From positions 1 through 64,000 of the forward strand of contig NZ_NFMB01000010.1 of NCBI RefSeq assembly GCF_002161215.1: a stretch of 64,000 nucleotides of DNA, in the 5' to 3' direction. A program made the translations under genes and the position numbers. This DNA comes from Flavonifractor sp. An10. GTDB lineage: Bacteria; Bacillota; Clostridia; Oscillospirales; Oscillospiraceae. Shown here one piece after another: positions 1,950 through 60,102 of the stretch. The notes under the pieces were generated by a model. The model was not told the origin of the DNA. It saw only the letters and a program-made list of their open reading frames with translations, and did not search any database. Positions within the stretch are counted from its first letter, which is position 1, and every line of letters begins with the position of its first letter.

Positions 1950-2128
1950 CAGAGTCTGCCGGCCCCGCCGGCAAGAGAGAATCATAAATGTTTTTGGGGG
2001 AATTCATTTTCCCCAAAAACACCCCGACCCGCGCCGCGGGGCGCGAAACCAGGGGTATCGAGCCAAGTCGCCGGCGTTTCGCCGGCACGCAGGCTCGTAT
2101 CCAGGGGGCCTGGGGCCCCCTGGACTTT
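1950..2128 (+). repeat. Structured repeat, family A, copy 1 (B-type 3' module)
   Basis: Begins GCCTCACAGAGT, close to the GCCTCGCAGAGT of the other copies. Then follow stem I (TGCCGGC/GCCGGCA), linker AATCATAAAT, stem II (GTTTTTGGGG/CCCCAAAAAC), a GC-rich stretch, GGGGTATCG with a nested stem (CGAGCC/GGCTCG around CGCCGGCG/CGCCGGC), and a terminal hairpin CCAGGGGGCC/GGCCCCCTGG. The end ACTTTA runs into the phoP stop codon. It lies antisense inside the phoP-phoR operon. The 3' half matches 39483-39584 with paired changes. Its stem II loop is not ACATGYG. Confidence 0.7.
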
Positions 2129-2795
2129 ACGTCATCTTGTACCCCACGCCCCGAACCGTGGTGATCACGTCCTCCCCCAGCTTCTGGCGCAGGGCCTTGA
2201 CGTGCATGTCCACGGTGCGGGTCTCGCCGGTGTAGTCGTAGTCCCAGACGGCCTGGAGGATCTCGTCCCGGGTGAGGGCCACCCCCCGGCGGGTACACAG
2301 CAGCTTGAGCAGCTCAAACTCCTTGTAGGTCAGCTCCACCACCCGGCCGGCCTTTCGCACCTCCCGGGCGGCGGGGTCGATCTCCAGATCCCCCCAGGTG
2401 AGCAGCCGGTCGCTCCTGCGCTCGGTGCGGCGGAGCACCGCCTTCACCCGGGCCTGGAGCTCCATGATGCCGAAGGGCTTGACCACGTAGTCGTCCGCCC
2501 CGTTCTCCAGCCCGGCCACCCGATCCATCTCGGCGGTGCGGGCGGTGAGCATGATTACCGGCACGTCGGCGGTGTCCCTCCCCTCCCGCAGGCGGCGGAG
2601 GATCTCCAGCCCGTCCATGCCGGGGAGCATGATGTCCAGGATGTACAGGGCGGGCAGGCTCTGCCCCTCCTCCCCGGCGAAGAGGGCCTCGCCGGACTCA
2701 TAGGCCCGGACGGCATAACCCACCGATTGAAAATAGTAGCGGAGCATCTCCCGGATGCTCTCGTCGTCCTCCACGACCGCGATGGCCCTGGCCAT
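2127..2795 (-). CDS. phoP: PhoP-type response regulator (OmpR family)
   Basis: DNA-binding response regulator of 222 residues, expected to bind Pho boxes such as those upstream of pstS. The receiver domain (about 1-120) shows the acidic pocket EDD at 9-11, the phospho-acceptor D54 in LDIMLPGMDG, and the Thr and Lys switch residues (LTAR and VVKPFG). The C-terminal winged helix (about 130-222) includes LTYKEFELL and VRGVGYKM, typical of OmpR/PhoB. The ATG follows AGGAGGG by 7 nt and sits 12 bp after phoU, so translation is probably coupled. The 3' end touches a structured repeat. Confidence 0.93.
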   Translation of the reverse strand: MARAIAVVEDDESIREMLRYYFQSVGYAVRAYESGEALFAGEEGQSLPALYILDIMLPGMDGLEILRRLREGRDTADVPVIMLTARTAEMDRVAGLENGADDYVVKPFGIMELQARVKAVLRRTERRSDRLLTWGDLEIDPAAREVRKAGRVVELTYKEFELLKLLCTRRGVALTRDEILQAVWDYDYTGETRTVDMHVKALRQKLGEDVITTVRGVGYKMT

Positions 2796-2807
2796 GGCAG
2801 TCCCTCC

Positions 2808-3452
2808 TTACCCGAGAATTTCGCCGGTGACGCAGAAGATGGCCCACTGGGCGATGTTCACCGCGTGGTCGGCGGTACGCTCCAGGTACTTGGCGATGAT
2901 GATCAGGTCGATGGCCTGGTCGGCCTCCTCCCGGTTGTCCACAATGAGCTCCACCAGCTCGCTCTTGATGGTGCGGAAGTACTCGTCCACCTCGTCGTCC
3001 AGAGCGATGACGGCCTGGGCGGCCTCGGTGTCCCGGTTGACATAGGCGAAGATGGCCCGCTTGACCATCACGCCGGCCTTCTGGCTCATGGAGCGGATGT
3101 CGGCCAGGGTCTGGGTCTGCTTCTGGCCCTTGAGCAGCAGGGCAATCTCGGCGATGTTGGCGCACTGGTCGCCGATGCGCTGCAGGTCGGTGACCATCTT
3201 GAGGGCGGCGGAGATGGTGCGCAGATCCCGTGCCACGGGCTGCTGCTGCAGCAGCAGGCGCAGGCAGCGGTTCTCGATGTCCCGCTCCATCTGATCCATG
3301 GTCTTGGTCATCTCCACGGCGGACTTGGCGGCCGCCTCGTCGCCGGTGGTCAGGGACTCAATGACCACGTCGATGCAGTCCTCGGCCGCGGCGGCCATGT
3401 CGATCATCTCATAGTTGAGCTCCTGGAGCTCGGCGTCAAAGGTTTTTCTCAT
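2808..3452 (-). CDS. phoU: PhoU phosphate signalling protein
   Basis: Peripheral cytoplasmic protein that links the Pst transporter to the PhoR kinase and damps the Pho response when phosphate is plentiful. The 214-residue, mostly helical protein contains two copies of the PhoU three-helix bundle; the motif RDLRTISAALK in the first and ERTADHAVNIAQW in the second carry the metal-binding acidic/His pattern of the family. Length matches known PhoU. It lies between pstB and phoP, its usual place in Firmicutes, but a 186-bp structured repeat separates it from pstB. Confidence 0.95.
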   Translation of the reverse strand: MRKTFDAELQELNYEMIDMAAAAEDCIDVVIESLTTGDEAAAKSAVEMTKTMDQMERDIENRCLRLLLQQQPVARDLRTISAALKMVTDLQRIGDQCANIAEIALLLKGQKQTQTLADIRSMSQKAGVMVKRAIFAYVNRDTEAAQAVIALDDEVDEYFRTIKSELVELIVDNREEADQAIDLIIIAKYLERTADHAVNIAQWAIFCVTGEILG

Positions 3453-3476
3453 TGCGACCTCCTGATAATAGCTGGT

Positions 3477-3662
3477 TGAAAAGCCTCGCAGAGTTCGCGC
3501 CTATGGGCGCGAATCAAATACAAACCGGTTTTCCCGGCGACATGTGCGTCGGGGAAACCACCTCTCAGCCTGCAAGTGTGGAATTTGTCCGCAGCAGGCG
3601 GACAAATTCTGCGCGCGGCAGGCTGTATCTTTCTCAAAAAATCGGCTACGCCGATTTTTTGA
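3477..3662 (+). repeat. Structured repeat, family A, copy 2
   Basis: Starts AGCCTCGCAGAGTT (3482). Stem I is TTCGCGCC/GGCGCGAA, linker TCAAATACAAACC, stem II GGTTTTCCC/GGGGAAACC with inner CG/CG closing the loop ACATGTG (3540-3546). Stem III is GCCTGC/GCAGGC enclosing GTCCGC/GCGGAC. The terminal hairpin AAAAAATCGGC/GCCGATTTTTT is followed by GAC and the TTA that is the pstB stop codon read on the other strand. Stem sequences differ from the other copies but pairing is kept. It lacks the TGTCGAAAAA left end present in copies 3 and 6. Confidence 0.75.
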
Positions 3663-3663
3663 C

Positions 3664-4425
3664 TTATCCGAACCGGCCGGTGATATAGTCCTCGGTGCGC
3701 TTGTCCTTGGGCACGGAGAAGAGCTGGGTGGTGTCGCCGAACTCGATGAGCTGGCCCAGCAGGAAGAAGGCGCACTTGTCGGAGACGCGGGTGGCCTGCT
3801 GCATGTTGTGGGTGACGATGACGATGGTGTACTGGTTTTTCAGATCGGCGATCAGATCCTCAATCTTGGAGGTGGAGATGGGATCCAGGGCGGAGGTGGC
3901 CTCGTCCATCAGCAGGATGTCGGGCTCCACCGCCAGGGCCCGGGCGATGCACAGGCGCTGCTGCTGGCCGCCGGACAGGCCCAGGGCGGACTTTTTCAGG
4001 CGATCCTTCACCTCGTCCCAGATGGCCGCGCCCTGGAGGGACTTCTCCACAATGTCGTCCAGCTTGCTCTTGCTCTTGATGCCGTGGGTGCGGGGGCCGT
4101 AGGCCACGTTGTCATAGATGGACATGGGGAAGGGATTTGGCTTCTGGAACACCATGCCGATCTGCTTGCGCAGCCACGTCACGTCCACGCTGGGGTCGTA
4201 GATCTCGATGCCCCGGTACTGGATGGAGCCGGTGATCTTGATGCCGGGCACCAGGTCGTTCATGCGATCCAGGGTCTTGAGGAAGGTGGACTTGCCGCAG
4301 CCGGAGGGGCCGATGAGGGCCGTCACCTGCTTCTCGGGGATGTCCATGCTCACGTCCTTGAGGGCCTGCGTCGTGCCGTACCAGAGGTCCAGCCCCTTGG
4401 TTGACAGGATAATATTCTCGTCCAT
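3664..4425 (-). CDS. pstB: Phosphate ABC transporter ATP-binding protein
   Basis: ATPase that drives phosphate import through PstA/PstC. The 253-residue protein shows Walker [10 protein letters not shown] at 39-47, ABC signature LSGGQQQR near 145, Walker [12 protein letters not shown] near 170, and the His switch (IVTHNM) near 205. Length is that of a single-domain PstB. The ATG has AAGGAG upstream and lies 13 bp after pstA. The stop codon abuts the terminal hairpin of a structured repeat, so readthrough to phoU may be attenuated. Confidence 0.97.
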
Positions 4426-4438
4426 AAATCAGGGCTCC

Positions 4439-5320
4439 TTACTTTTTCTTTAGTTTCGCGCCCACCAGCTTGGCGGCCAGGTTGATGACCAGGGTGAGCA
4501 GCATCAGGATGGCGGCGATGGCGAAGGCCACGTCAAACTCGGCCCGCTCCCGGGCGTACACATACAGGGCCACGGTGAGGGAGGCGCCGGAGGAGTGGAT
4601 GAAGTTGTCGAAGGAGGCGAAGAAGTTGTTCAGGCTCATACCCATGCCGGCGGTAAAGAGCAGGGCGGCGGACTCGCCCACGATGCGGCCGATGGCCAGG
4701 ATGCAGCCGGTGACGATGCCGTCGATGGAGGAGGGCAGCACCACGGTGCGGATCATGTGCCACTTGCCCGCGCCCAGGCCCAGGGCGGCCTCCCGGTAGG
4801 ACTGGGGGACGGTTTTCAGGGACTCCTGGGTGGTGCGGATGATGGTGGGGATGGTGACGATCACCAGGGTGAGGGCGCCGGCCAGCAGGGAGGCCTGGAG
4901 GCCCAGCAGCTGGCAGAAGAACAGCATGCCCACCAGGCCGAAGATGATGGAGGGGATGCCGGTGAGGGTCTCGGTGGCGAACTCGATGGCGGCCACCAGC
5001 TTCCGGTTGCGGGCGTACTCGGTCAGGTACACCGCCGCCCCCACGCCCAGGGGGAGGATGATGATCAGGGTGATGACCACCAGGTAGACGGTGTTGAGGA
5101 TGTTGGGCAGGATGCCGATGGTGTCCTGGATGAAGCTGGGCTCCGTGGAGAGGAAAGACCAGCTGATGTGGGGCAGGCCCTGGATGAAGATATACCCGAT
5201 GATGAAGATCAGCAGGGCGCAGGTCAGGGCCGCGCAGAAATACAGCAGGAAGCGGAGCACCCGGTCATAGGCCTTCCGCCTGCCGGAGAGGGGCTGCATG
5301 GTAATCTTTTTGTCTTCCAT
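4439..5320 (-). CDS. pstA: Phosphate ABC transporter permease PstA
   Basis: One of two membrane subunits of the high-affinity phosphate importer. The 293-residue protein has about six hydrophobic helices, beginning at residue 20 or so, and the EAA-type loop (SYREAALGLGAGKWHMIRTV) that contacts PstB. The start is preceded by a weak GGGGTGAT site and lies 9 bp after pstC, consistent with coupling. Paralogous to the next gene; order pstS-C-A-B fixes the identity. Confidence 0.95.
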   Translation of the reverse strand: MEDKKITMQPLSGRRKAYDRVLRFLLYFCAALTCALLIFIIGYIFIQGLPHISWSFLSTEPSFIQDTIGILPNILNTVYLVVITLIIILPLGVGAAVYLTEYARNRKLVAAIEFATETLTGIPSIIFGLVGMLFFCQLLGLQASLLAGALTLVIVTIPTIIRTTQESLKTVPQSYREAALGLGAGKWHMIRTVVLPSSIDGIVTGCILAIGRIVGESAALLFTAGMGMSLNNFFASFDNFIHSSGASLTVALYVYARERAEFDVAFAIAAILMLLTLVINLAAKLVGAKLKKK

Positions 5321-5329
5321 ATCAGTATA

Positions 5330-6196
5330 TCACCCCTTCTTCCGTTTGAGAAGCGTGTTGAGAACCACATTGATAAGCATAATGAAGAGAAAGAGAACCA
5401 GAGCGATGGAGAACAGGGCCTGCCGCTGGAGGCCGGAGGCATAGGACATCTCGCTGGCCACGGCGGTGGTGAGGAAGCGGACGGACTTGAACAGCCCGGG
5501 CATGTTGGCCACGTTGCCGGCCACCATGATGATGGCCATGGCCTCGCCGATGGCCCGGCCGATGCCCAGCACGATGGAGGCGGCGATGCCGCTGGAGGCC
5601 GCGGGGACGGACACCCGGAACACGGTCTCGATGTGGGTGGCGCCCAGAGCCAGGGAGGCCTCCTCATACTCCTTGGGCACCGCCTTGAGGGCGGTTTCGG
5701 ACACGGAGATGATGGAGGGGAGGATCATGACGGCCAGCACGATGATGGCACAGAACAGGCTGGCGCCGTCGGGCAGGTTGAAGGCCACCCGCACCGCGGG
5801 CACCAGCACCATCATGCCGATGAGGCCGTACACCACCGACGGGATGCCGGCCAGCAGATCCACCGCCGGGCGCACCACGGCGGCCAGCCTGGGGGGCGCC
5901 ACCTTGGCCAGGAACACGGCGGTCATGAAGCCCACGGGCACGCCCAGCACAATGGCGCCGGCGGTGCCGTAGATGGAGGTGAGGATGAAGGGCAGAATGC
6001 CGAACTTGGGCTCTGCGGCGGTGGAGGCCCACTCGGTGCCGAAGAGGAAGTCGATCAGACCGATCTCCCGGATGGCTGGGATGCCGGAGATGATCAGATA
6101 GACGCTGATGAAGAGCACGAACACGATGGCGATGAAGCCGCAGGCGAAAAACACCAGGTTCATGATGGTCTCCATCGGTCGGAGCTTTTGTTTCAT
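5330..6196 (-). CDS. pstC: Phosphate ABC transporter permease PstC
   Basis: Second membrane subunit of the phosphate importer. The 288-residue protein has about six membrane helices (first near 10-35) and the permease signature EYEEASLALGATHIETV near residue 180. It follows pstS after a 188-bp spacer that contains a strong hairpin, an arrangement that lets the binding protein be made in excess of the permeases. Confidence 0.95.
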   Translation of the reverse strand: MKQKLRPMETIMNLVFFACGFIAIVFVLFISVYLIISGIPAIREIGLIDFLFGTEWASTAAEPKFGILPFILTSIYGTAGAIVLGVPVGFMTAVFLAKVAPPRLAAVVRPAVDLLAGIPSVVYGLIGMMVLVPAVRVAFNLPDGASLFCAIIVLAVMILPSIISVSETALKAVPKEYEEASLALGATHIETVFRVSVPAASSGIAASIVLGIGRAIGEAMAIIMVAGNVANMPGLFKSVRFLTTAVASEMSYASGLQRQALFSIALVLFLFIMLINVVLNTLLKRKKG

Positions 6197-6384
6197 GGCA
6201 GATTACCGGCCTTTCGTAGAATAACGCGTACAGAACAAAGGCGAAAGCCCTGAAAGCCGGGGCTTTCACAGCCCGTTGGCTTTGTCAGATGCGGGGATTT
6301 GGGGCTGATCACGCCGAAGGCCCCCTCGAAGCGAAGCCCGAGGGGGCAGATCCGGCATAAAGAGCAGGGTGTAATTGGTGGGGC
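6197..6384 (-). promoter_or_regulatory. pstS-pstC spacer with attenuating hairpins
   Basis: The 188-bp spacer holds an inverted repeat GCCCCCTCG/CGAGGGGGC (6320-6347) just after pstS, and a smaller hairpin GAAAGCC/GGCTTTC near 6255-6270. There is no long U tract, so partial termination or an mRNA processing/stability site is more likely than full termination. No small ORF is convincing here. Confidence 0.6.
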
Positions 6385-7284
6385 TTACTCGGCCACGGGC
6401 ACGGCGCCGGCGGAGGCGATCAGGTCGGCGGCATCGGTGGAGGTGGCCCAGTCCACGAACGCCTGGGCGGCGGGGGACAGCTCGGTGCTCTCGTTGATGA
6501 TGAAGTTGAAGTTACGCTGGATGGCGTAGGTGCCGTCCAGGACGGTCTCCTCGGTGGGAGCCACACCGCCCACGGTGAGGGCCTTCACGGTCTCGTCCAC
6601 GGCGGACAGGGAGGCGTAGCCGATGGCGTTGGGGTTGGAGGCCACGTTGGCGATCACCTCGCCGGTGGAGGTCAGCTCGTTCTGGTACACGCAGGTATCC
6701 TCGGTGCCGGTGATGGACTCAAAGCCGTCGCGGGTGCCGGAGCCGGCCTCACGGCCGATGGGCACGATCTGGCCGTCCTCGCCGCCCAGCTCAGACCAGT
6801 TGGTGATCTCGCCGGTGAAGATCTGGGCGATCTGCTCGATGCTCAGGTCGGCCACGGGGTTGTTGGGGTTGACAATGATGGCGATGCCGTCCTTGGCCAC
6901 GGTGATCTGTGTCACGCCGGTCTCGTCGTCGTGGAGGTCGCGGGAGGCCAGGCCGATGTCGCAGGTGCCGTCCTGGGCGCCGGTGACGCCGGCGCCGGAG
7001 CCGGAACCGGTGTAGTTGACGGTGATGCCGGGCTGCACCTCGGCAAAGCCCTCGGTCAGGTAGCCCATGACGCTCTCCATGGAGGTGGAGCCGTTGGTGT
7101 TGACGGTGCCGGTGAGCTGCTCAGCGGCGGGGGACTCGCTCTCGGGAGCCTCGGAAGCGGGAGCCTGGGACTCGGTGTTGGCGGCGGGGGACTCGGTAGT
7201 AGTGGTGGTGCCGCCGCCGCAGCCGGCCAGCATGCCCACGCACAGAGCGGCGGACAGCATCAGAGCAAGAGTTCTCTTCTTCAT
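6385..7284 (-). CDS. pstS: Phosphate-binding lipoprotein PstS
   Basis: Extracellular lipid-anchored receptor that delivers phosphate to PstCA. From the chosen ATG the signal peptide MKKRTLALMLSAALCVGMLAGC ends in the lipobox LAGC with Cys at 22, followed by a Ser/Pro/Glu linker of about 35 residues. The PBP-like fold shows the phosphate loops SGSGAGVTG and GREAGSGTRDGFE. A TTG nine bases upstream is in frame, but GGAG is spaced properly (10 nt) only for this ATG. First gene of the pst-pho cluster, with Pho-box-like sites upstream. Confidence 0.95.
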   Translation of the reverse strand: MKKRTLALMLSAALCVGMLAGCGGGTTTTTESPAANTESQAPASEAPESESPAAEQLTGTVNTNGSTSMESVMGYLTEGFAEVQPGITVNYTGSGSGAGVTGAQDGTCDIGLASRDLHDDETGVTQITVAKDGIAIIVNPNNPVADLSIEQIAQIFTGEITNWSELGGEDGQIVPIGREAGSGTRDGFESITGTEDTCVYQNELTSTGEVIANVASNPNAIGYASLSAVDETVKALTVGGVAPTEETVLDGTYAIQRNFNFIINESTELSPAAQAFVDWATSTDAADLIASAGAVPVAE

Positions 7285-7337
7285 GTCGTTCAATCTCCAA
7301 TCATGTAATGGTTTTGTTTCTCCTTGGAACGCTATTC

Positions 7338-7392
7338 AGTATATCGGCCGATTGTAAAGTTGTCCCCCATCAAATTGTAAAGATCATGTAAA
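7338..7392 (-). promoter_or_regulatory. Pho-box promoter of the pst operon
   Basis: On the minus strand two TTTACA hexamers are spaced exactly 5 nt (plus-strand TGTAAA at 7387-7392 and 7376-7381), with a third at 7353-7358, two helical turns further. This is the B. subtilis PhoP pattern of TT(A/T)ACA repeats with 11-bp period. A -10-like TATACT (plus 7338-7343) follows the last hexamer; no good -35 is present, as expected for an activated promoter. Confidence 0.75.
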
Positions 7393-7426
7393 GTCCTTCT
7401 GCCCCATAGCTTTCCCGTCTTTACAC

Positions 7427-7457
7427 AAAAAATTCGCCCCCGGAATGGGGGCGAATT
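7427..7457 (-). terminator. Terminator of the SLH metalloprotease gene
   Basis: Arms AAATTCGCCCCC and GGGGGCGAATTT pair, and on the minus strand a run of six T follows. It lies 39 bp beyond the stop codon of the gene ending at 7496 and insulates it from the pst promoter. Confidence 0.85.
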
Positions 7458-7495
7458 TAGGGGAATTGAATAAAGCGGCTCCGGGCCCTCCGGCA

Positions 7496-9139: not shown

Positions 9140-9189
9140 CGGTGTCATCCCTTTCCAGTTTATTGAGCAGGAATTATTTCGCTATGGAA

Positions 9190-9218: not shown

Positions 9219-9223
9219 GGGTT

Positions 9224-26670: not shown

Positions 26671-26695
26671 TACGCCCCGTCCGGTGGACGGAGCG
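26671..26695 (+). terminator. Imperfect terminator-like palindrome after the UPF0210 remnant
   Basis: ACGCCCCGTCC and GGACGGAGCG pair around GGT. It resembles the intact terminator at 26911-26937 on the far side of the next structured element, as if one palindrome had been duplicated around that insert. Confidence 0.5.
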
Positions 26696-26701
26696 CCAGG
26701 C

Positions 26702-26906
26702 TGTCGAAAAACCTCCCGCGAAGGAGAGCCTCGCAGAGTTCCTGCGGCCGCAGCCGCAGGAATCAAATCAAAATCCGTCATTTCCGGCGACATGTGCGTC
26801 GGAAATGACACTTCTCATGGTGGAAGGGGTGACTTTTTCGCAAGAAAACGAACCCCTTCCACCATGCAATCTTTCTCGAAAAAGCGGCTTTGCCGCTTTT
26901 TCGACA
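26702..26906 (+). repeat. Structured repeat, family A, copy 3 (full length)
   Basis: 205 bp bounded by TGTCGAAAAA and TTTTTCGACA. Order: small hairpin CTCC/GGAG, AGCCTCGCAGAGTT, stem I (TTCCTGCGGC/GCCGCAGGAA), ATCAAATCAAAATCCG, stem II (CATTTCCG/CGGAAATG, inner CG/CG, loop ACATGTG), ACACTTCT, stem III (CATGGTGGAAGGGG/CCCCTTCCACCATG, tip TTTTC-GCAA-GAAAA), then AAAAAGCGGC/GCCGCTTTTT. It lies between the convergent ends of the UPF0210 and P-type-like genes. Confidence 0.85.
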
Positions 26907-26910
26907 CGCT

Positions 26911-26941
26911 GACGCCCCGTCCATCGGACGGGGCGTCGTTT
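26911..26941. terminator. Terminator between convergent genes
   Basis: GACGCCCCGTCC and GGACGGGGCGTC pair around ATC and are followed by GTTTTT on the plus strand. It sits 9 bp from the stop codon of the P-type-like gene and may serve the plus strand mainly. Confidence 0.8.
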
Positions 26942-36058: not shown

Positions 36059-37441
36059 TCACCCCTCCTTTTTCGGGAGGTATTTCTCGATAAACTCCGG
36101 CTTGATGCGCTTGAGCTCGCTCTTGGGCAGGATGCTCAGCAGCTCCCAGCCCAGATCCAGGGTCTCCTCAATGGAGCGGTTCTCCTCGCTGCCCTGGGCC
36201 ACATAGCGCTTCTCAAACTCGTCGGCAAACTTGGCGTACAGCAGGTCGGTGGGGGACAGGGCGGCCTCACCCAGGATGGACATGAGCTCCTTGTTCTCCT
36301 TGCCGGTGGCGTAGGCGGCGAAGAGCTGGTTCATGGTGCCCGCGTGATCCTCCCGGGTGCGGCCCACGCCGATGCCCTTGTCCTTCAGACGGGACAGGGA
36401 GGGCAGCACGTCCACGGGGGGATTGATGCCCTTGCGGAACAGCTCCCGGCTCAGGATGATCTGCCCCTCGGTGATATAGCCGGTCAGGTCGGGGATGGGG
36501 TGGGTCTTGTCGTCCTCGGGCATGGTCAGGATGGGGATCAGGGTGATGGAGCCCTTCTTGCCCATCTGGCGGCCGGCCCGCTCGTAGATGGTGGCCAGGT
36601 TGGTGTACAGGTAGCCCGGATAGCCCCGGCGGCCCGGCACCTCCTTCTTGGCGGCCGACACCTCCCGGAGGGCCTCGGCGTAGTTGGTGATGTCGGTGAG
36701 GATGACCAGCACGTGCATATCCTTCTCAAAGGCCAGGTACTCCGCGGCGGTGAGGGCCATGCGGGGGGTGGCGATACGCTCCACGGCGGGGTCGTTGGCC
36801 AGGTTGGTGAACAGCACCGTCCGGTCGATGGCGCCGGTGCGGCGGAACTCCTGGACGAAGAAGTCGGACTCCTCAAAGGTGATGCCGATGGCGGCGAACA
36901 CCACGGCGAAGTTGCCCGCGTCGTCCCCCAGCACCTTGGCCTGCCGGGCGATCTGGGCGGCCAGGGCCGCGTGGGGCAGGCCGGAGCCGGAGAAGATGGG
37001 CAGCTTCTGGCCGCGCACCAGGGTGTTCAGGCCGTCGATGGTAGAGATGCCGGTCTGGATGAACTCGTTGGGGTAGTCTCGGGCGGCGGGGTTCATGGGC
37101 AGGCCGTTGATGTCCCGGTACTCCTCGGCCAAAATCTCCGGGCCGCCGTCGATGGGCTTGCCCATGCCGTTGAACACCCGGCCCAGCATATCGCCGGACA
37201 CGCCCAGCTGGAGGGGGTGGCCCAGGAAGCGCACCTTGGACTCCTTCAGGTTGATGCCGGCGGAGGACTCGAACAGCTGCACCACGGCGTTGTCGCCGTT
37301 GACCTCCAGCACCTGGCAGCGGCGGACGGTGCCGTCGGGCAGCTCGATCTCGCCCAGCTCGTCATAGGTGACGCCGGACACGCGGCGCACCACCATCAGG
37401 GGGCCGTTGATCTCCTGAATGGTACGGTATTCCTTGATCAT
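36059..37441 (-). CDS. ntpB: V-type ATPase subunit B
   Basis: Non-catalytic nucleotide-site subunit alternating with A in the V1 hexamer. The 460-residue protein lacks a Walker A P-loop, as expected for B, and shows [41 protein letters not shown] and [19 protein letters not shown] (the Arg-rich interface). The ATG overlaps the ntpA stop in an ATGA, a strong coupling signal that fits the 1:1 stoichiometry of A and B. Confidence 0.97.
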
Positions 37442-39216
37442 TCGTCAGCACCTCCCCTGGCCGCGGCGGCCTCGATCTCTTCCTCCATCTCCCGGGCCAT
37501 GTCGGCGTAGACGGCGGGATACTGGTCGTCGGGCACGCTCTTGGCCCGGCCCATCTTCTCCCGGAAGGGGATGGCAAACAGGTCGGCGGCCGCGGCGCCC
37601 TTGTCGATGGCGGCCCGGCACAGCCGGTCGTAGTCCAGGATCATGGACAGCATCTTGTCCTGCCGGTCGTAGCTGGAGTACCAGTCCACCTCCATGAAGC
37701 CGTTCTGCTGGAGGAAGTCCTCCCGCAGCATCTTGGCGGTCTCCAGGGTGAGCTGATCCCCGGCGGACAGGGAGTCCTTGCCCACCAGCTGGACGATCTC
37801 GTTGAGGCTGGCCTCCTCCTGGAGGATGGACATGGCCTGCTCCCGGTGCGCCATGAACTGGGGCCCCAGGTTCTCGTCATACCAGGGCTTGAGGGAGTCC
37901 AGGTACAGGGAGTAGGAGTTGAGCCAGTTGATGGCCGGGAAGTGGCGGCGGTAGGCCAGGGAGGAGTCCAGGGCCCAGAACACCTTGACGATGCGCATGG
38001 TGGCCTGGGAGACGGGCTCGGACAGGTCGCCGCCGGGGGGCGACACGGCGCCCACGGCGGTGAGGGAGCCCCGGCGCTCGGCATCGGAGCCGATGCACTC
38101 CACCATGCCGGCCCGCTCGTAGAACTGGGCCAGGCGGGAGGACAGGTAGGCGGGGTAGCCCTCCTCGCCGGGCATCTCCTCCAGGCGGCCGGACATCTCG
38201 CGCAGGGCCTCGGCCCAGCGGGAGGTGGAGTCGGCGATGACGGCCACGTCGTAGCCCATGTCCCGGAAGTACTCGGCGATGGTGATGCCGGTGTAGATGG
38301 ACGCCTCACGGGCGGCCACCGGCATGTCGGAGGTGTTGGCGATGAGCACCGTCCGCTTCATCAGGGACTCGCCGGTGCGGGGATCCACCAGCTCGGGGAA
38401 CTCCCGCAGCACGTCGGTCATCTCGTTGCCCCGCTCGCCGCAGCCGATGTAGACCACGATGTCCACATCCGACCACTTGGCCAGCTGGTGCTGCATGACG
38501 GTCTTGCCCGAGCCGAAGGGGCCGGGGATGGCGGCGGTGCCGCCCTTGGCCACGGGGAACAGGGCGTCCACGATGCGCTGGCCGGAGAGCAGGGGGGTGC
38601 GGGGGGCGTACTTGTGCTTGTAGGGCCGGCCCACGCGGACGGGCCACTTCTGCACCATGGTCAGCTCGTGCTTCTCCCCCTTCTCGTCCACCACCACGGC
38701 CACCGTGTCCAGCACGGTGAAGGAGCCGGACTGGATGGACTCCACGGTGCCCTTCAGGGTGGGGGGCACCATGATTTTGTGGAGCACCACGCTGGTCTCC
38801 TGGACGGTGCCCAGCACATCGCCGCCGATGACCTTGTCGTCGGGCTTGGCCACGGCGGTAAAGTCCCACTTCTTCTCCCGATCCAGGGCGGGCACCTCCA
38901 CGCCACGGGGGAGGTTGTTGCTGCCGGCCTTTTTCAGAATCCCCTCCAGGGGGCGCTGGATGCCGTCGTAGATGTTCTCAATCAGGCCGGGGCCCAGCTC
39001 CACGCTCATGGGGGCGCCGGTGGTCTCCACCACCGCGCCGGGGCCCAGGCCGGAGGTCTCCTCGTACACCTGGATGGAGGCGGCATCGCCGTTCATGTTC
39101 AGGATCTCGCCGATGAGCCGCTGCTCGCCCACCCGAACCACGTCGGCCATGTTGGCGTCCTTCAGTCCGGTGGCCACCACCAGCGGGCCGGAGACCTTGA
39201 CAATTTTACCGCTCAA
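37438..39216 (-). CDS. ntpA: V-type ATPase catalytic subunit A
   Basis: Catalytic ATPase subunit of the V1 head. The 592-residue protein has a beta-barrel start ([14 protein letters not shown]), the long non-homologous insert typical of A (about 110-200), the P-loop GPFGSGKT near 232, catalytic-Glu region [13 protein letters not shown], and [17 protein letters not shown]. The TTG at 39214-39216 is chosen because AGAAGG lies 9 nt upstream; another TTG nine bases earlier is too close. It follows a 366-bp non-coding gap after ntpG, unusual inside this tightly packed operon. Confidence 0.95.
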
Positions 39217-39370
39217 TAAGCTCAACCTTCTTTCTCGTCGGGACAAGCTTTGTATCCTTCGCCCCGGCGCAAGCGCCAGGGCTCACTCACTCCGCTGTCC
39301 CTCCTCCTCCCCGCCGAACCCGCTTCGCTGGGCTCCGGCGGGGGTGCGGGCGACCGCAGGCCGCCCCTAC
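39217..39370. other. Non-coding palindromes inside the ntp operon
   Basis: Between ntpA and a structured repeat. Contains GGCGC/GCGCC, a hairpin CCCCGCCG/CGGCGGGG with CCC/GGG inside, and a GTAGGG-type palindrome (GGGCGACCGCAGGCCGCCC then CTACA, 39343-39371). No gene or promoter is recognisable. Confidence 0.55.
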
Positions 39371-39584
39371 AGCCTCGCAGAGTTTCCGGCGCGGCGCGCC
39401 GGAAAGTAAATCAAAATCCGTGCGGAGCAGGACATGTGCCTGCGCAGCACACCGATGCTTGCTCCGCCACCGGCGGGCAACCACCCGCGCGGGCGCGGGT
39501 GAGGGGGGTATCGCGGTCATTGTGCCGCCCAAAGGGCGGCGCGGTGACCGCGTATCTAGGGGGGATGAAATCCCCCCTGGACTT
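39371..39584 (+). repeat. Structured repeat, family A, copy 4 (B-type 3' module)
   Basis: Starts AGCCTCGCAGAGTT, stem I TTTCCGGCGC/GCGCCGGAAA, then AAATCAAAATCCG, stem II GTGC-GCAGG/CCTGC-GCAC closing the loop ACATGTG. Its 3' half matches copy 1: ACCCGCGC/GCGCGGGT, GGGGTATCG, GCGGTCA/TGACCGC around GCCGCCC/GGGCGGC, CGTATC, and TAGGGGGGAT/ATCCCCCCTGG. The end ACTTA is the ntpG stop codon read backwards. Antisense to the ntp operon. Confidence 0.75.
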
Positions 39585-39897
39585 ACAGGATATCCGCGCC
39601 CACGGCCCGCTCCACCGCTCTTTTGACATTGGCCATGCCGATGCCCAGGGAGCCGTCCTTGCCGGGGATCAGGATGATGGCGGGGGTGAGGGCATCCTTG
39701 TATTTCTCCACATCGGCCGCCATGGCGGCGGCGTACCCCTCGGTGAGGTAGATCACCGCCACATTCTCCCTGGCCAGGGCGTGGAGGGTGCGTCTGGCCT
39801 CCTCCACGTTCTCCGCCGGGTACACGTCCAGCCCCAGGGCCTTGAAGCCCAGGACGCTGTCCTTGTCGCCCAATACGGCAATCCGATAATTAGACAT
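39583..39897 (-). CDS. ntpG: V-type ATPase subunit F (NtpG)
   Basis: Small central-stalk subunit that binds D. The 104-residue protein begins YRIAVLGDKDSVLGFKALGL, the canonical F-subunit opening, and has the ILIPGKDGSLGIGM loop. Length is normal. It follows ntpC after 116 bp and precedes ntpA. Its stop codon coincides with the terminal hairpin of a structured repeat, so ntpA expression might be lowered relative to upstream genes. Confidence 0.94.
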   Translation of the reverse strand: MSNYRIAVLGDKDSVLGFKALGLDVYPAENVEEARRTLHALARENVAVIYLTEGYAAAMAADVEKYKDALTPAIILIPGKDGSLGIGMANVKRAVERAVGADIL

Positions 39898-46921: not shown

Positions 46922-46945
46922 GGGGGAGGGCTTCCGCCCTCCCCC
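46922..46945. terminator. GC-rich palindrome, left member of a pair
   Basis: GGGGGAGGGC and GCCCTCCCCC pair around TTCC. The same palindrome recurs at 47162-47184, so the two flank the structured repeat between them. On the minus strand CTTTG follows, a weak terminator in front of the SLH gene's leader. Confidence 0.6.
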
Positions 46946-46950
46946 GAGCG

Positions 46951-47155
46951 TGTCGAAAAAGCGGCAAAGCCGCTTTTTCGAGAAAGATCACATGGCGGAA
47001 GGGGTTCGTTTTCTTGCGAAAAAGTCACCCCTTCCGCCATGAGAAGTGTCATTTCCGAGGCGCATGTCCCCGGAAATGACGGATTTTGATTTTATTCCTG
47101 CGGCTGCGACCGCAGGAACTCTGCGAGGCTTTTCCTCACGGAGGGTTTATCGGCA
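46951..47155 (-). repeat. Structured repeat, family A, copy 5 (full length)
   Basis: 205 bp from TGTCGAAAAA to TTTATCGGCA on the plus strand. Read on the minus strand: CCTCC/GG remnant, AGCCTCGCAGAGTT, stem I TTCCTGCGG/CCGCAGGAA, ATAAAATCAAAATCCG, stem II CATTTCCG/CGGAAATG with inner GG/CC and loop ACATGCG, stem III CATGGCGGAAGGGG/CCCCTTCCGCCATG with tip GCAA, and AAAAAGCGGC/GCCGCTTTTT. Compared with copy 3, one pair in stem III is C-G in place of T-A, and the inner stem II pairs are GG/CC in place of CG/CG. Confidence 0.85.
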
Positions 47156-47161
47156 GCCTGA

Positions 47162-47184
47162 GGGGAGGGCTTCCGCCCTCCCCC
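47162..47184. terminator. GC-rich palindrome, right member of a pair
   Basis: GGGGAGGGC/GCCCTCCCC around TTCC, almost identical to 46922-46945. It lies 27 bp after the bofA stop codon and could end the yaaL-bofA transcript. Confidence 0.55.
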
Positions 47185-51509: not shown

Positions 51510-51511
51510 GA

Positions 51512-54296: not shown

Positions 54297-54309
54297 AGGG
54301 AGAGTATGT

Positions 54310-55179: not shown

Positions 55180-55621
55180 TACCGCATTCCACCGCTCTCC
55201 ACGTAGGGCCGCCATATATGGCGGCCGCCCGGTGGAGGCCCGGCCTCCGGCGAGGCGCCTACGCGGCGGGCGCCCCCATTTCTTCCCGAAGAAATGGGGG
55301 CAAAGAAGGGGCGGGGGAGGGATTTCGATTCCACGGGTTAAGGTGGCTTCGCCTGAATTGCTTTTGGGCTAAAACGTGCCACCGGCACGTTTCTTGACGC
55401 CCAAACCCCCTGCACCCCCTCCTTGAAACGACCAATCAGGGGGGAACTGCGGTTCCCCCCTATTGGATGTACCCCCCAGGCTGCTCTATCGGGGGATTTC
55501 CGGCGGCATGCCCTTACTTCGTAACGGCCCCGCCGCTCGTATGCGTCCATCCTGTAGGGCGGGGGCTTGCCCCCGCCATCCCCCAATGATCTGTTATTTA
55601 AGTTGGAAAGGAGCCCTGTAC
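55180..55621. other. Intergenic palindrome cluster
   Basis: 442 bp without a gene. Holds two GTAGGG palindromes (55203-55229 and 55553-55577), a hairpin CCCCCATTTCTTC/GAAATGGGGG, a nested structure TTTGGGC/GCCCAAA enclosing AAACGTGCC/GGCACGTTT (near 55365-55410), and GGGGGGAAC/GTTCCCCCC near 55439-55460. No ribosome site or promoter stands out until AAAGGAG before the LUD gene. Probably an accumulation of several repeat types. Confidence 0.55.
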
Positions 55622-56212
55622 ATGCCCGACTATGAGAAACTGCGCAAGAATCTGGAAGCCCGCGGATTTGACGTGACCTATTTCGACACCGCGGCGGAGG
55701 CCGTGGACTACTTAGACCGGAAGCTGGATGGGAAAGCGGTGGGCCACGGCGGCTCCATCACCCTGCGGGACATGGGGCTTATCGAGCGGCTCCAGCGCCA
55801 CGCCACGGTGCGCAGCCACTGGCTGGGGGACAGCTTTGCCGACGCGGCGGCCTCCTCCGTCTACCTGACCTCGGTGAACGGCCTGGCGGAGACCGGGGAG
55901 CTCATCAACATCGACGGCACGGGCAACCGGGTGGCCTCCACCATCTTCGGCCACGAGGAGGTCTACTTCCTGGTGGGCTCCAACAAGATCGCCCCCGACT
56001 ACGACGCCGCCCTGTGGCGGGCCCGCAACGTGGCCTCCCCCAAGAACGCCCAGCGGCTGGGCAAAAAGACCCCCTGCGCCGTCAGGGGGGACAAGTGCTA
56101 CGACTGCAAGAGCCCCGAGCGCATCTGCCGGGCCCTGGCGGTGCTGTGGGAGAAGCCCACGGGCATCGGACGGGCCGAGGTGGTGCTGATCGACGAGCCC
56201 CTGGGCTACTGA
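55622..56212 (+). CDS. LUD domain protein (LutC/YkgG-like)
   Basis: 196-residue protein with the LUD fold (about 1-185), related to the LutC subunit of lactate utilisation and to stand-alone DUF1121 proteins. Motifs: AVGHGGSITLRDMGL, TSVNGLAETGELINIDGTGN, VGSNKIAPDYDAALWRARN, and a Cys-containing tail (CAVRGDKCYDCKSPERIC) that might bind a metal or cluster. No lutA/lutB lies beside it, so a lactate role is not supported. AAAGGAG precedes the ATG. Confidence 0.82.
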   Translation: MPDYEKLRKNLEARGFDVTYFDTAAEAVDYLDRKLDGKAVGHGGSITLRDMGLIERLQRHATVRSHWLGDSFADAAASSVYLTSVNGLAETGELINIDGTGNRVASTIFGHEEVYFLVGSNKIAPDYDAALWRARNVASPKNAQRLGKKTPCAVRGDKCYDCKSPERICRALAVLWEKPTGIGRAEVVLIDEPLGY

Positions 56213-56229
56213 GCGGGAGGAGGCGCGGC

Positions 56230-57306
56230 ATGCGACGAGCTCTTCTGGCGCTGGCCCTGTGCTGCGCCCTGTCCCTGACGGGCTGCTCCGCCCTGCTGGA
56301 GCGGCCCTACGCCGTGGTGGAGTCCCACACCGAGCAGCCCGCCGCCGGGGACGGCTCCTCCATCCAGGTCGGCACCTACTCCGAGCTGGTCAACGCGGTG
56401 CTCTTCTTCGTCTCCCAGGGGACGGAGGTGGGGGAGCTCCAGCTGGTGGAGTACACCGGCGACGTGGAGGAGGATCTGAACCGGGCCTGCCTGGAGGTAG
56501 CCACGGAGGATCCCCTGGGCGCCTACGCGGTGGACTTCATCAAGAACCAGTACACCCGGGTGCTCACCACCTACGAGGCCACCATCACCATCTCCTACCG
56601 CCGCACCAGGGAGCAGATCAACAGCCTGGTCAACGTCACCGGCACCAGCGCCATCCGCAACGAGGTGGCGGAGGCCCTGGCCGACTACCGCAGCGAGGCA
56701 GTCCTGCGGGTGGGGTACTTCACCGCCGACGCCGACGCCATCGCCCAGCTGGTGCGGCAGGCCTACTATGACGCGCCCGCCTCCGCCATGGGCATGCCGG
56801 AGTTCACCGTCTCCCTCTACCCCGAGTCGGGCAGCCAGCGGATTGTGGAGATCCTCTTCACCTACCCCGGGGAGGCCTCCGCCCTCCGCCAGAAGCGGGA
56901 CGCCCTGCAGGCCGAGGTGGACGCCCTGATGCTCCCCCTGCGGCCCCAGCAGCAGTCCGCCTCCGCCCGCCGGGCCACCCTGTTCGCCGTGGCCCAGGAG
57001 CGGATCCAGTCCGCCCCCGGCGGCGGCCCCTCCGCCTGGGACGCCCTGCTGGGCGACGGTGCGGACAGCGAGGGCACGGCCCTGGCCTTCCAGCTGCTCA
57101 GCGGGGAGCTCCTGGTGGGCTCCACCCTGGTGGAGGGCACCCTGAACGGGGAGCCCCACTTCTGGAACCAGCTCACCGAGGACGACGGCGCCCACTACGT
57201 GGATCTCACCCGCAGCGGCGGCGGCCTCACCTATTCCGCCGCCGATCTGGCGGAGCTGGGCTATGTGTGGGAGGGTATGCCGGTTTCTGCGGAAAACCCG
57301 CAGTAA
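56230..57306 (+). CDS. Lipoprotein with a transglutaminase-like C-terminal region
   Basis: 358-residue exported lipoprotein: signal peptide MRRALLALALCCALSLTGC with the lipobox LTGC (Cys 19), then a mixed domain (about 45-240) and a C-terminal part (about 265-350) that follows the transglutaminase-like pattern AWDALLG, EGTALAFQLL, HFWNQL, HYVDLT. The catalytic Cys position seems to be Ser280 while His310 and a following Asp are kept, so it is probably inactive; the alignment is by eye. GGGAGGAGG lies upstream, 17 bp after the LUD gene, suggesting cotranscription. Confidence 0.6.
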   Translation: MRRALLALALCCALSLTGCSALLERPYAVVESHTEQPAAGDGSSIQVGTYSELVNAVLFFVSQGTEVGELQLVEYTGDVEEDLNRACLEVATEDPLGAYAVDFIKNQYTRVLTTYEATITISYRRTREQINSLVNVTGTSAIRNEVAEALADYRSEAVLRVGYFTADADAIAQLVRQAYYDAPASAMGMPEFTVSLYPESGSQRIVEILFTYPGEASALRQKRDALQAEVDALMLPLRPQQQSASARRATLFAVAQERIQSAPGGGPSAWDALLGDGADSEGTALAFQLLSGELLVGSTLVEGTLNGEPHFWNQLTEDDGAHYVDLTRSGGGLTYSAADLAELGYVWEGMPVSAENPQ

Positions 57307-57332
57307 TCCGCTCAAAATCGCCGCAAAAAGCC

Positions 57333-57361
57333 TTGACTTTTCCAGAGCCCGCTGATATAAT
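57333..57361 (+). promoter_or_regulatory. rplU operon promoter
   Basis: TTGACT and TATAAT are separated by 17 bp, giving a leader of about 210 nt before rplU. Confidence 0.88.
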
Positions 57362-57369
57362 GCTAGAGC

Positions 57370-57577
57370 CGCTTTGAATGGGAACCAAAGTGAAGCACGG
57401 CGTGATGTCACGCTCGGCACGCTCGCGGCCGGGTCGCTAAGTGCGTACTCCGCGAAAAATGCCGCTGGCCTGCGGCCAGCCTGTTTTTTCGTCTGCGTAC
57501 TCCCTTAGCTCCCCTGCTCACGGCCTGCGCGCTTCCTCCCCCGACAGCGAGCCCGTCATGAAGGAGTTGAAAGAAAC
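57370..57577 (+). ncRNA. rplU (L21) leader with an attenuator
   Basis: The long leader contains paired GC-rich segments (GCGTGA/TCACGC), the sequence TGCGTACTCC twice (57442 and 57495 areas), and a hairpin GCTGGCC/GGCCAGC followed by CTGTTTTTT (57464-57489), a clear intrinsic terminator well before the coding region. This fits the Firmicutes L21 leader type that allows ribosomal protein autoregulation, though I cannot check the covariance model. Confidence 0.7.
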
Positions 57578-57889
57578 ATGCATGCGATCATTGAGACCGG
57601 CGGCAAGCAGTACAAGGTGGCCGAGGGCGACACCCTGTTCATCGAGAAGCTGCCCGTGGAGGCCGGCGAGGCCGTGACCTTCGACAAGGTGCTGGCCGTC
57701 ATCGACGGTGAGAACGTCACCGTGGGCACCCCCGTGGTGGAGGGCGCCAAGGTGGACGCCTCCGTGGTGAAGAACGGCAAGGGCAAGAAGATCATCGTCT
57801 TCAAGTACAAGCCCAAGAAGGGCTACCGCCGCAAGCAGGGCCACCGTCAGCCCTACACCAAAGTCACCATCGGCAAGATCTCTGTGTAA
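57578..57889 (+). CDS. rplU: Ribosomal protein bL21
   Basis: 103-residue 50S subunit protein that binds 23S rRNA. It begins [20 protein letters not shown] and ends with the basic [19 protein letters not shown], both canonical. AAGGAG precedes the ATG. First gene of the rplU-prp-rpmA cluster. Confidence 0.98.
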
Positions 57890-57890
57890 G

Positions 57891-58223
57891 ATGACCACGG
57901 TTCGCTTTCAGATGGAGGGCGAGCGCATTGTGGGCTTCACCGTCCAGGGCCACAGCGGCTATGGGGAGGCGGGCTCGGACATCGTCTGCGCCGCCGTCAC
58001 CAGCGCCGTCCGCCTGACCGAGTGCGCCGTCAACGACGTGCTGGGCCTGGGGGCCTCGGTGAAGATCCGGGAAAAGGACGCGTCCATCCATCTGCGCATA
58101 CCCGGCGGGCTGAGCGCGGAGAACGAGTCGGTGTGCCAGACCCTTCTGGCCGCCCTGATGGTTCACTTTGCCAGCCTGCACGAGGAGTATCCCGAAAACC
58201 TGACCGTGCTGGAGGAGGATTGA
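57891..58223 (+). CDS. prp: Ribosomal-processing cysteine protease Prp
   Basis: 110-residue protease that removes the N-terminal extension of ribosomal protein L27, an essential step in Firmicutes. Catalytic His21 (QGHSGYGE) and Cys33 (DIVCAAVT) are both present. It starts 1 bp after rplU and lies between rplU and rpmA as usual; the neighbouring L27 has the matching cleavage motif. Confidence 0.96.
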   Translation: MTTVRFQMEGERIVGFTVQGHSGYGEAGSDIVCAAVTSAVRLTECAVNDVLGLGASVKIREKDASIHLRIPGGLSAENESVCQTLLAALMVHFASLHEEYPENLTVLEED

Positions 58224-58269
58224 CCTCCGCACGACATGATTTACACACAAGTTTGGAGGTGTGAATACC

Positions 58270-58554
58270 ATGCTGAACATCGGTCTGCAGTTTTTCGCCC
58301 ACAAGAAGGGCGTCGGCTCCACCCGCAACGGCCGTGATTCCGAGGCCAAGCGCCTGGGCGTGAAGCGGGGCGACGGCCAGTTCGTCCTGGCCGGCAACAT
58401 CTTGGTTCGCCAGCGGGGCACCCATATCCATCCCGGCGTCAACGTGGGCAAGGGCAGCGACGACACCCTGTTCGCCCTCAAGAGCGGCAAGGTGAAGTTT
58501 GAGCGCCTGGGCAAGGATCGCAAGCAGGTCTCCATTGTCGAGATCGCTCAGTAA
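58270..58554 (+). CDS. rpmA: Ribosomal protein bL27 with cleavable extension
   Basis: 94-residue 50S protein. The N terminus [18 protein letters not shown] has the Prp cleavage site after FF, so mature L27 starts at Ala10. The ATG at 58270 has GGAGGTG 8 nt upstream; a GTG nine bases earlier overlaps that site. Confidence 0.97.
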
Positions 58555-58563
58555 TTGCGCACA

Positions 58564-58597
58564 AATCGCCCCGAACTCCGGAGTTCGGGGCGATTTT
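58564..58597 (+). terminator. Terminator after rpmA
   Basis: AATCGCCCCGAACT/AGTTCGGGGCGATT around CCGG, followed by TT. It lies 10 bp after rpmA and just before obgE, whose ribosome site follows directly, so obgE is probably expressed by partial readthrough. Confidence 0.85.
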
Positions 58598-58617
58598 CTG
58601 TATAAAGGAGAGAATGT

Positions 58618-59898
58618 ATGGCAGCACCCTTTGTGGACACCGCCCGCATCACCGTGCGGGCGGGCAATGGCGGCAACGGCGCGGTGGCCTTCCACCGGGA
58701 GAAGTACGTGGCCGCCGGCGGCCCCGACGGCGGCGACGGCGGCCGGGGGGGCAGCGTGATTCTGGAGATCAACGAGCACATGTCCACCCTGATGGACTTC
58801 CGGTACAAGCGCAAGTACGTGGCGGCCAACGGCATGGACGGCCAGGGCAAGCGCTGCTCCGGCAAGGACGGGGAGGATCTGATCATCAAGGTTCCCCGGG
58901 GCACGGTGGTGCGGGACGCCGAGACGAAGGAGATCATCTGCGACATGTCCCAGACCGACCGCTTCGTGCTGGCCCGCGGCGGCAACGGCGGCTGGGGCAA
59001 CAAGCACTTCGCCACCCCCACCCGGCAGGTGCCCCGCTTCGCCAAGGCGGGCCTGCCCGGCCAGAGCCGGGACGTGATCCTGGAGCTCAAGCTCCTGGCC
59101 GACGTGGGCCTGGTGGGCTTCCCCAACGTGGGCAAGTCCACCCTGCTCTCTGTGGTGAGCAAGGCCCGGCCCAAGATCGCCAACTACCACTTCACCACCC
59201 TGTTCCCCAACCTGGGGGTGGTGTACGTGGAGGAGGGGGTGTCCTTCGTCCTGGCCGACATCCCCGGCATCATCGAGGGGGCCGCCGAGGGCGCCGGCCT
59301 GGGCCACGACTTTTTGCGGCACATCGACCGGTGCCGCCTGCTCATCCACGTGGTGGACGTGTCCGGCTCCGAGGGGCGGGATCCGGTGGCCGACTTTGAG
59401 GCCATCCAGGCCGAGCTGAAGGAGTACGGCTCCGGGCTGGAGAACCGGCCCATGCTGGTGGCGGGCAACAAGGTGGACATTGCCGCCGACCGGAGCGGGC
59501 TGGAGGCCCTGAAGGCCCACGTGGAGGCCAAGGGGCTCCCCTTCTTCGAGATCTCCGCCGCCGCCCAGCTGGGCACCCGGGAGCTGATGTACGCCGCCGC
59601 CCGGGAGCTGGAGCACCTGCCCCCCATAACGGTGTACGAGCCCACCTATGTGGAGCGGCCGCCGGAGGTGGATATGTCCCAGCCCCTCAACATCATCCAC
59701 GAGGACGACACCTGGATCGTGGAGGGCCCCTGGCTCCAGCGGCTCATGTCCAACGTCAACTTCGGGGACTACGAGTCCCGCAACTGGTTCGACAAGATGC
59801 TCCGCCAGTCCGGCCTGTTCGACCGGCTGGAGGAGATGGGCATCAAGGACGGGGACATCGTGTCCCTGTACAACCTGGAATTTGAATACCAGCGGTAA
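58618..59898 (+). CDS. obgE: GTPase ObgE
   Basis: Essential GTPase acting in 50S subunit assembly and stress control. The 426-residue protein has the Gly-rich Obg fold (1-158; RAGNGGNGAVAFHREKYV), the G domain (G1 GFPNVGKST at 167-175, G3 DIPGIIEGA, G4 NKVD), and the C-terminal OCT domain (about 355-426, EDDTWIVEGPWLQRLM). AAGGAGAG precedes the ATG. Its TAA stop is followed immediately by the terminal hairpin of a structured repeat, which probably serves as the terminator. Confidence 0.97.
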   Translation: MAAPFVDTARITVRAGNGGNGAVAFHREKYVAAGGPDGGDGGRGGSVILEINEHMSTLMDFRYKRKYVAANGMDGQGKRCSGKDGEDLIIKVPRGTVVRDAETKEIICDMSQTDRFVLARGGNGGWGNKHFATPTRQVPRFAKAGLPGQSRDVILELKLLADVGLVGFPNVGKSTLLSVVSKARPKIANYHFTTLFPNLGVVYVEEGVSFVLADIPGIIEGAAEGAGLGHDFLRHIDRCRLLIHVVDVSGSEGRDPVADFEAIQAELKEYGSGLENRPMLVAGNKVDIAADRSGLEALKAHVEAKGLPFFEISAAAQLGTRELMYAAARELEHLPPITVYEPTYVERPPEVDMSQPLNIIHEDDTWIVEGPWLQRLMSNVNFGDYESRNWFDKMLRQSGLFDRLEEMGIKDGDIVSLYNLEFEYQR

Positions 59899-60102
59899 GT
59901 CAAAAAAGCGGCAAAGCCGCTTTTTTGAGAAAGGATGCATGGCGGAAGGGGTTCGATTTCTTGCGAAATTGTCACCCCTTCCGCCATGAGAAGTGTCATT
60001 TCCGAGGCGCATGTCCCCGGAAATGACGGATTTTCAATTTATTCCTGCGGCTGCGGCCGCAGGAACTCTGCGAGGCTCTCCTTTGCGGGAGATTTTTCGA
60101 CA
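59899..60102 (-). repeat. Structured repeat, family A, copy 6 (full length)
   Basis: 204 bp. Read on the minus strand: TGTCGAAAAA, CTCC/GGAG hairpin, AGCCTCGCAGAGTT, stem I TTCCTGCGGC/GCCGCAGGAA, ATAAATTGAAAATCCG, stem II CATTTCCG/CGGAAATG with inner GG/CC and loop ACATGCG, stem III CATGGCGGAAGGGG/CCCCTTCCGCCATG with tip ATTTC-GCAA-GAAAT, and AAAAAAGCGGC/GCCGCTTTTTT, then GAC at the obgE TAA. The tip pairs differ from copy 3 in a compensatory way. Confidence 0.85.

Follow-up and report, generated by a model that had tools for sequence, protein, structure and literature searches.

A modular, hairpin-rich repeat family of Flavonifractor and its relatives, probably mobilised by an IS1182-type transposase

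The first 64,000 nucleotides of contig NZ_NFMB01000010.1 of Flavonifractor sp. An10 (assembly GCF_002161215.1), referred to below as the window, carry six copies of an intergenic element of roughly 200 bp. Our analysis suggests that these copies belong to a modular, hairpin-rich family of miniature inverted-repeat transposable elements (MITEs), the mobile form of which is probably moved by a transposase of the IS1182 family. On its plus strand, the strand read in the initial annotation of the window, the element consists, in this order, of a box GCCTCGCAGAGT and hairpin I, joined by an A-rich linker to hairpin II, whose tip is GACATGYGC; CACTTCTC and hairpins III and IV follow. The box, hairpin I, the linker and hairpin II form the conserved core; hairpins III and IV are exchangeable. 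The initial annotation had read the stems as a sign that selection acts on a folded RNA and not on DNA alone. What stood of that interpretation is that the copies form a family, have no match in Rfam, covary, and fold better on one strand. The preference for selection on RNA over DNA did not stand: the mobile copies have terminal inverted repeats (TIRs) of insertion sequence (IS) type, are associated with hairpin duplication, and share ends and target with IS1182, which together indicate that the element is at least partly a DNA transposable element.

Terminal repeats and duplicated target hairpins

Inverted repeats of the form CAG..TGTCGAAAAA terminate 40 of the 86 copies analysed in this genome. 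Comparisons with copies elsewhere refer to a set from other records, at least 108 copies from at least 121 loci (113 genomic and 8 viral) after edge and duplicate filters, and TIRs are present in 29 of 108 of these. The TIR pattern CAGNNTGTCGAAAAA, with one mismatch allowed, gave 161 matches against 10 in a reversed control. TIR-bearing elements occur in multiple copies, are 174-430 bp long and have no transposase gene inside. Similarity between their flanks exceeds the 99% level set by mismatched pairs in 23 of 42 copies here (a looser pattern in this analysis gave 42 rather than 40) and in 21 of 29 elsewhere. In most cases the duplicated flank is a single whole palindromic hairpin of 23-41 bp (a few are shorter, the shortest 13 bp), and it touches both edges of the element exactly in 25 of 44 cases and within 3 bases in 36 of 44. 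Among TIR-less copies in this genome there was no long shared flank, the longest being 11 bases. The flanks thus show a mobile form that, in this genus and its relatives, appears to take intrinsic-terminator hairpins as its targets and, in most cases, to leave a full copy of the hairpin on either side.

Both TIR-bearing copies with intact ends in the window, copies 3 and 5, lie between duplicated hairpins. Copy 3 (26697-26911, plus strand) is a complete mobile form of 215 bp between convergent predicted genes. It has a left TIR (26697-26711), the box (26728-26739), hairpins I (26739-26762), II (26777-26809), III (26816-26866) and IV (26876-26904), and a right TIR (26897-26911). The target hairpin is found to its left at 26672-26695 and, followed by a T run, to its right at 26912-26935, both on the plus strand. 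Copy 5 (46946-47160, minus strand) has its left TIR at 47146-47160, its box at 47118-47129 and its right TIR at 46946-46960. In the orientation of the element its duplicated hairpin lies to the left at 47162-47184 and to the right at 46923-46945, also on the minus strand, the two being identical over 23 bp. The TIRs and the duplicated flanking hairpins of these two copies had been overlooked in the initial annotation.

A candidate motor

The genome of the window has an intact IS1182-family transposase (G000:C10; NF033551, 370 bits against a cut-off of 270). The IS that carries it has the ends CAGCCTGTCGAGAAA...TTTTTCGACAGCCTG, the same terminal repeats as the element, ends in a hairpin like hairpin IV, and sits between two 36-bp hairpins with 2 bases different. 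An IS1182 transposase in a relative (G006), 85% identical, is flanked by identical 30-bp hairpins. Because the ends are identical and the target duplication is shared, we infer that the IS1182-family transposase probably acts in trans on the TIR-bearing copies.

In a second family of repeats, about 175 bp long, the terminal repeats are those of the element but enclose an unrelated interior of hairpins, and at several of its loci one terminator hairpin is found on both sides (L214-L216, L218-L224, L226-L229, L231 and L232; for example L216, at about 91.6 kb of G000:C9). Such a family, with the same ends and in duplicated terminators, is what would be expected of MITEs mobilised in trans. At a further locus (L213, G000:C8, about 191.4-192.7 kb) a copy of the second family appears by eye to be joined to, or interrupted by, an insertion of about 1 kb.

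Distribution of the family

That the element is a multi-copy intergenic family, as first proposed, is borne out at the level of both the genome and the order. The box with up to one mismatch occurs at 98 sites in the whole genome, against 26 for a reversed-pattern control, and a model of the core, covering its first 90 positions and derived from 32 copies, matches 88 places in the 3.88-Mb genome. The 86 copies analysed are 94 box sites minus 8 that were chance matches or truncated. In the order, the core model matches 51 of 394 genomes from six families, the window's own genome included. In a sample of the class it matches 4 of 391 genomes, three of them from the window's own family, including its own genome; the fourth match lies outside the order and is weak (E 6e-4). 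Among the matches listed in a scan for the pattern, the named hosts belong to Oscillospiraceae and their neighbours; they include Flavonifractor, Pseudoflavonifractor, Intestinimonas, Oscillibacter and Sporobacter termitidis. The core is also present in at least 8 viral contig records (L354-L361), which may be host fragments or prophages. In one genome bin (Lapin-020; L281, 4830-5034) the segment from the box to hairpin II is repeated three times in tandem, 71 bases apart.

The initial annotation had recognised no known RNA family in the element, and no Rfam match reached the gathering score in the window. At permissive thresholds copy 3 gave only sub-threshold matches (best E 0.001 at 20 bits, where the gathering score is 56) and copies 1 and 2 likewise had none that reached the gathering score, while 15 other loci gave only two T-box matches and one TPP match, all away from the core positions. 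These searches rule out a known Rfam RNA. At L095, from about position 1081 onward, a truncated element adjoins, on the opposite strand, a stretch that from its motif we take to be like a T-box leader. No description of the element in Oscillospiraceae was found among the papers listed in searches of open-licence PMC text.

Insertion beside genes

Gene positions come from a home-made gene caller that was trained on 15 open reading frames, those out of 20 in which Pfam hits were found; it is approximate and was used unchanged on other species. With this caller, the right-hand gene has its 3' end toward the element in 74 of the 86 copies of this genome and in 92 of the 108 from other records. At tandem gene pairs the orientation of TIR-less copies is 31:0 here and 29:9 elsewhere, and that of TIR-bearing copies 12:7 here and 9:2 elsewhere; in this genome the two classes differ with a Fisher p of 0.0005, and a coding-strand bias of 80% does not fit the 31:0 (p 0.001). 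The distance to the stop codon and the T run were scored only in copies with an opposite-strand right-hand gene 140-300 bases from the box, which covered 24 of the 31 TIR-less tandem copies here and 25 of the 29 elsewhere. In 41 of these 49 copies hairpin IV lies no more than 7 bases from the upstream stop codon, and hairpin IV contains a T run of at least 4 in 14 of the 49, against 44 of 60 convergent copies (p 3e-6). TIR-less copies therefore stand in tandem pairs, behind a stop codon and in one orientation, and mostly lack the U-tract of hairpin IV. The replication strand, considered as a possible cause of the orientation, was compared with it in four genomes, three of them with just 4 to 8 matches; in G205, with 30 matches on about 20 contigs, the strands are mixed within contigs. 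The initial annotation had missed that stop codons abut copies 1, 2, 4 and 6.

TIR-less copies probably descend from TIR-bearing insertions. A ribosome terminating on the upstream gene would cover hairpin IV and so prevent polar termination, and this would probably account for the one-sided orientation: insertions would be tolerated only when hairpin IV comes to lie beneath that ribosome. Effects of the element on gene expression are likely. The gap between pstB and phoU, which copy 2 occupies in the window, is 12-17 bp long and free of the element in 15 of the 18 congeners in which both genes were aligned. In the other three it measures 116 bp (L184, G019), 108 bp with a shortened element (L185, G008) and 85 bp (L194, G009). 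Natural insertions inside the phosphate operon and inside a V-ATPase operon are places where effects on downstream genes are directly measurable.

Exchange of hairpins and covariation

The observation that stems are kept while their bases change extends to the family. Covariation was measured in 32 copies picked from the 86 for their diversity; six of the 32 were placed partly out of register by the aligner. Both sides vary in 18 of the 23 pairs (a count that takes no account of relatedness), and paired cells make up 88.7%; shuffling of columns lowers this to 69.7%, and sliding to 53.8% at most. The plus strand folds better in 73 of 86 copies here and in 77 of 108 elsewhere.

Comparison of orthologous sites suggests a second source for such a pattern. 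At five sites both flanks could be aligned in a relative. In three of the five the relative's element has similar borders and different whole hairpins; in one (L371 against copy c62) the two share one element, into which a palindrome of about 45 bp has been inserted in the loop of hairpin II; and in one (c54 against L377) just a degraded remnant is left. The insert in the hairpin II loop is present in 9 of the 86 copies here (one of them reversed), another palindromic insert lies in hairpin I of 5 of the 86, and L376 has one in hairpin III. The products seen at these sites indicate that whole hairpins are exchanged within the interiors, probably through recombination between copies, and that loops receive nested insertions. 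Since whole hairpins differ at three of the five sites, covariation from copy to copy overstates pair-by-pair compensation, and much of it may be exchange of modules. That module exchange in a transposable element can yield strong RNA-like covariation is a caution for RNA discovery by covariation only.

Alternative explanations

Several observations weigh against the account given above. No duplication above the control was found in 27 of the 71 TIR-bearing copies. Of five other long transposase matches in relatives, ends and duplication occur together only in G006: the G416 transposase (52% identity) has the ends and no left-hand hairpin, and at the transposase loci of G045, G419 and G018 no convincing pair of ends was seen, nor were such ends found at two other long PF13751 frames in this genome, which are unclassified. 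The 29:9 orientation of TIR-less copies elsewhere fits a coding-strand bias of 80%, and the T-run contrast is weaker when made with convergent copies that are not TIR-bearing (14 of 27, p 0.05). Repeated independent insertion at the same site is an alternative to the swapping of hairpins. The second repeat family has neither box nor hairpin II, which indicates that these are not needed for IS1182-type ends, and their conservation is not explained by such ends. In family f7 (G030, G054, G073 and G116) the core is abundant, yet in 13 copies taken from 20 regions IS1182 ends were absent by eye and hairpins at the edges were not duplicated (best local match 10.5); G030, the only one of these four genomes in the transposase search, gave no match to the IS1182 transposase. 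IS1182 cannot explain the f7 copies. The abundance of the core in f7 without these ends, and the conservation of the box and hairpin II independently of IS1182, are the basis of another reading, which we regard as possible if doubtful: the core, with the ACATGYG tip of hairpin II and its retained purine-U pair, may itself be the mobile module, its folded plus strand recognised as RNA or as single-stranded DNA by some factor, hitched to IS1182 ends in Oscillospiraceae and multiplying without them in f7 through an undescribed mechanism.

A structured RNA, its plus strand transcribed, folded and recognised at the ACATGYG tip by a protein or ligand, and spreading because it is useful or self-propagating, would account for the covariation and for the better folding of the plus strand, and some details of the pairing point the same way. 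Among 31 distinct forms of hairpin II in this genome, pair 3 is G.U in 19 and A-U in 10, whereas its neighbours, pairs 2 and 4, alternate between GC and CG; elsewhere pair 3 is G.U or A-U in 70 of 84 distinct hairpins and G.G in 8. Counts of G.T against A.C favour the plus strand at pairs 2-3 of hairpin II (66:0) and in hairpin III (29:8), and hairpin III by eye ends in GCAA in many copies. Yet at tandem sites the plus strand is antisense to both genes, and no conserved promoter was seen by eye before the box, no promoter scan having been run. Elsewhere hairpin I has no strand bias (7 G.T against 8 A.C), and in 41 of 61 its tetraloop takes the UNCG form when the other strand is read. In the freely varying stems (hairpins I and IV, and hairpin II minus pairs 2-3) the plus strand has G.T 44 to A.C 21, which is little different from the 26 to 19 of host terminators, themselves RNA hairpins, so that such statistics do not separate RNA from DNA. 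On balance we think it unlikely that the element is chiefly a structured RNA. Low G.U content was dropped as a proof of a DNA-level process, host terminator hairpins being equally low (1.6% vs 1.2%).

The pairing might instead be unselected: template switching, together with recombination between copies, would keep the palindromes perfect, and the family would be no more than a residue of past transposition. The whole-hairpin differences at orthologous sites would fit, as would the scarcity of non-Watson-Crick pairs (about 2 to 3%) in hairpins I and IV and the free part of hairpin II. The unpaired blocks, the box and ACATGYG, are however kept in several families of the order, and orientation at tandem sites is one-sided; this makes a wholly unselected pairing rather improbable. 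If the element were REP-like, with a Y1 (HuH) transposase moving it as single-stranded DNA, this would explain strand-specific folding and high copy number, and Y1 matches do occur in the window's genome (12 matches) and in G008 and G016. Element-bearing genomes G030, G054, G073, G116, G205, G019 and G013 nevertheless have no Y1 match (G019 is 81% and G013 85% complete), and the TIR-bearing copies have long target duplications, so that we hold movement of this kind to be very improbable. G017 has Y1 and is element-poor. As a general motor, Y1/RAYT is disfavoured by the Y1-free genomes that bear the element.

Related mobile elements

Movement by IS1182, the reading we prefer, has parallels in that family. 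Its members IS1272 and TnSha1 target hairpins and terminators (PMC5678879, PMC4923244), and the IS of this genome is like them in its transposase family (NF033551) and its target. The passages concerned report no target duplication for IS1272 and TnSha1, the hairpin being replaced or partly deleted (PMC5678879, PMC4923244), whereas here the whole hairpin is usually duplicated and the elements are gene-less. For ISCaa15, also of the IS1182 family, 4-bp direct repeats are tabulated (PMC3196728).

Among short repeats, BOX, RUP and SPRITE of pneumococcus are described as intergenic and mobile, with strong secondary structure, and as enriched between convergent genes; BOX is modular and SPRITE terminator-like, and all three likely affect co-transcribed genes (PMC3049150). 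Compared by description only, the present family differs from them in its whole-hairpin duplication, in the matching IS in the genome and in its one-sided orientation at tandem sites. The Chunjie MITE of Geobacter uraniireducens, 235 bp long, is inserted in a phosphate-uptake operon (PMC10969869); the review passages on it make no mention of IS1182 ends or hairpin duplication, unlike the element here. REP/BIME repeats with RAYT are alike in being many-copy, palindromic and intergenic, but Y1 was not found in several element-rich genomes and the present element has IS-type ends and target duplications. Against this background the family is best described as a MITE of structured and modular build, with the ends of IS1182 and duplication of the whole target hairpin. 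It is a repeat without an Rfam entry that occurs in tens of copies in several genomes of the order, tied to a transposase that apparently targets terminators and duplicates hairpins.

The six copies in the window

All six copies are present in the order and on the strands first given, with a small correction of coordinates, copy 1 starting at 1944 and not at 1950. Exact matches to the box GCCTCRCAGAGT (at 1944, 3483, 26728 and 39372 on the plus strand and at 47118-47129 and 60065-60076 on the minus strand) coincide with these six copies; the box alone with two mismatches allowed is not above chance in the window (11 matches, 12.9 in shuffles). The arms of stem I and the closing pairs of stem II proved to be as described (by a check of the sequence, with four copies folded). 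The ACATGYG loop is indeed found in five of the six, the exception being TTCAT in copy 1, and the GCAA loop in three. The four folded copies are 6 to 10 s.d. more stable than 200 shuffles each, none of which was equally stable.

Copy 1 (1944-2124, plus strand) is TIR-less with a variant interior, in which the box (1944-1955) is followed by hairpins. It is flanked by a histidine kinase gene (114-1892, minus) and a response-regulator gene (2127-2795, minus), its last hairpin lying 2 nt from the stop codon of the latter. Copy 2 (3477-3662, plus strand), also TIR-less, lies between phoU (2808-3452, minus) and an ABC ATPase gene (3664-4425, minus), the label of which as pstB-like rests on its position beside phoU; hairpin IV is 1 nt from the stop codon. 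Copy 4 (39371-39581, plus strand) is TIR-less and belongs to a subfamily with a last hairpin of the CTAGGGGGG type. It stands between genes for the A subunit (37438-39246, minus) and the F subunit (39583-39897, minus) of a V-type ATPase. Copy 6 (59899-60107, minus strand; box 60065-60076) has degenerate TIRs, and its last hairpin abuts the stop codon of an Obg-GTPase gene (58618-59898, plus).

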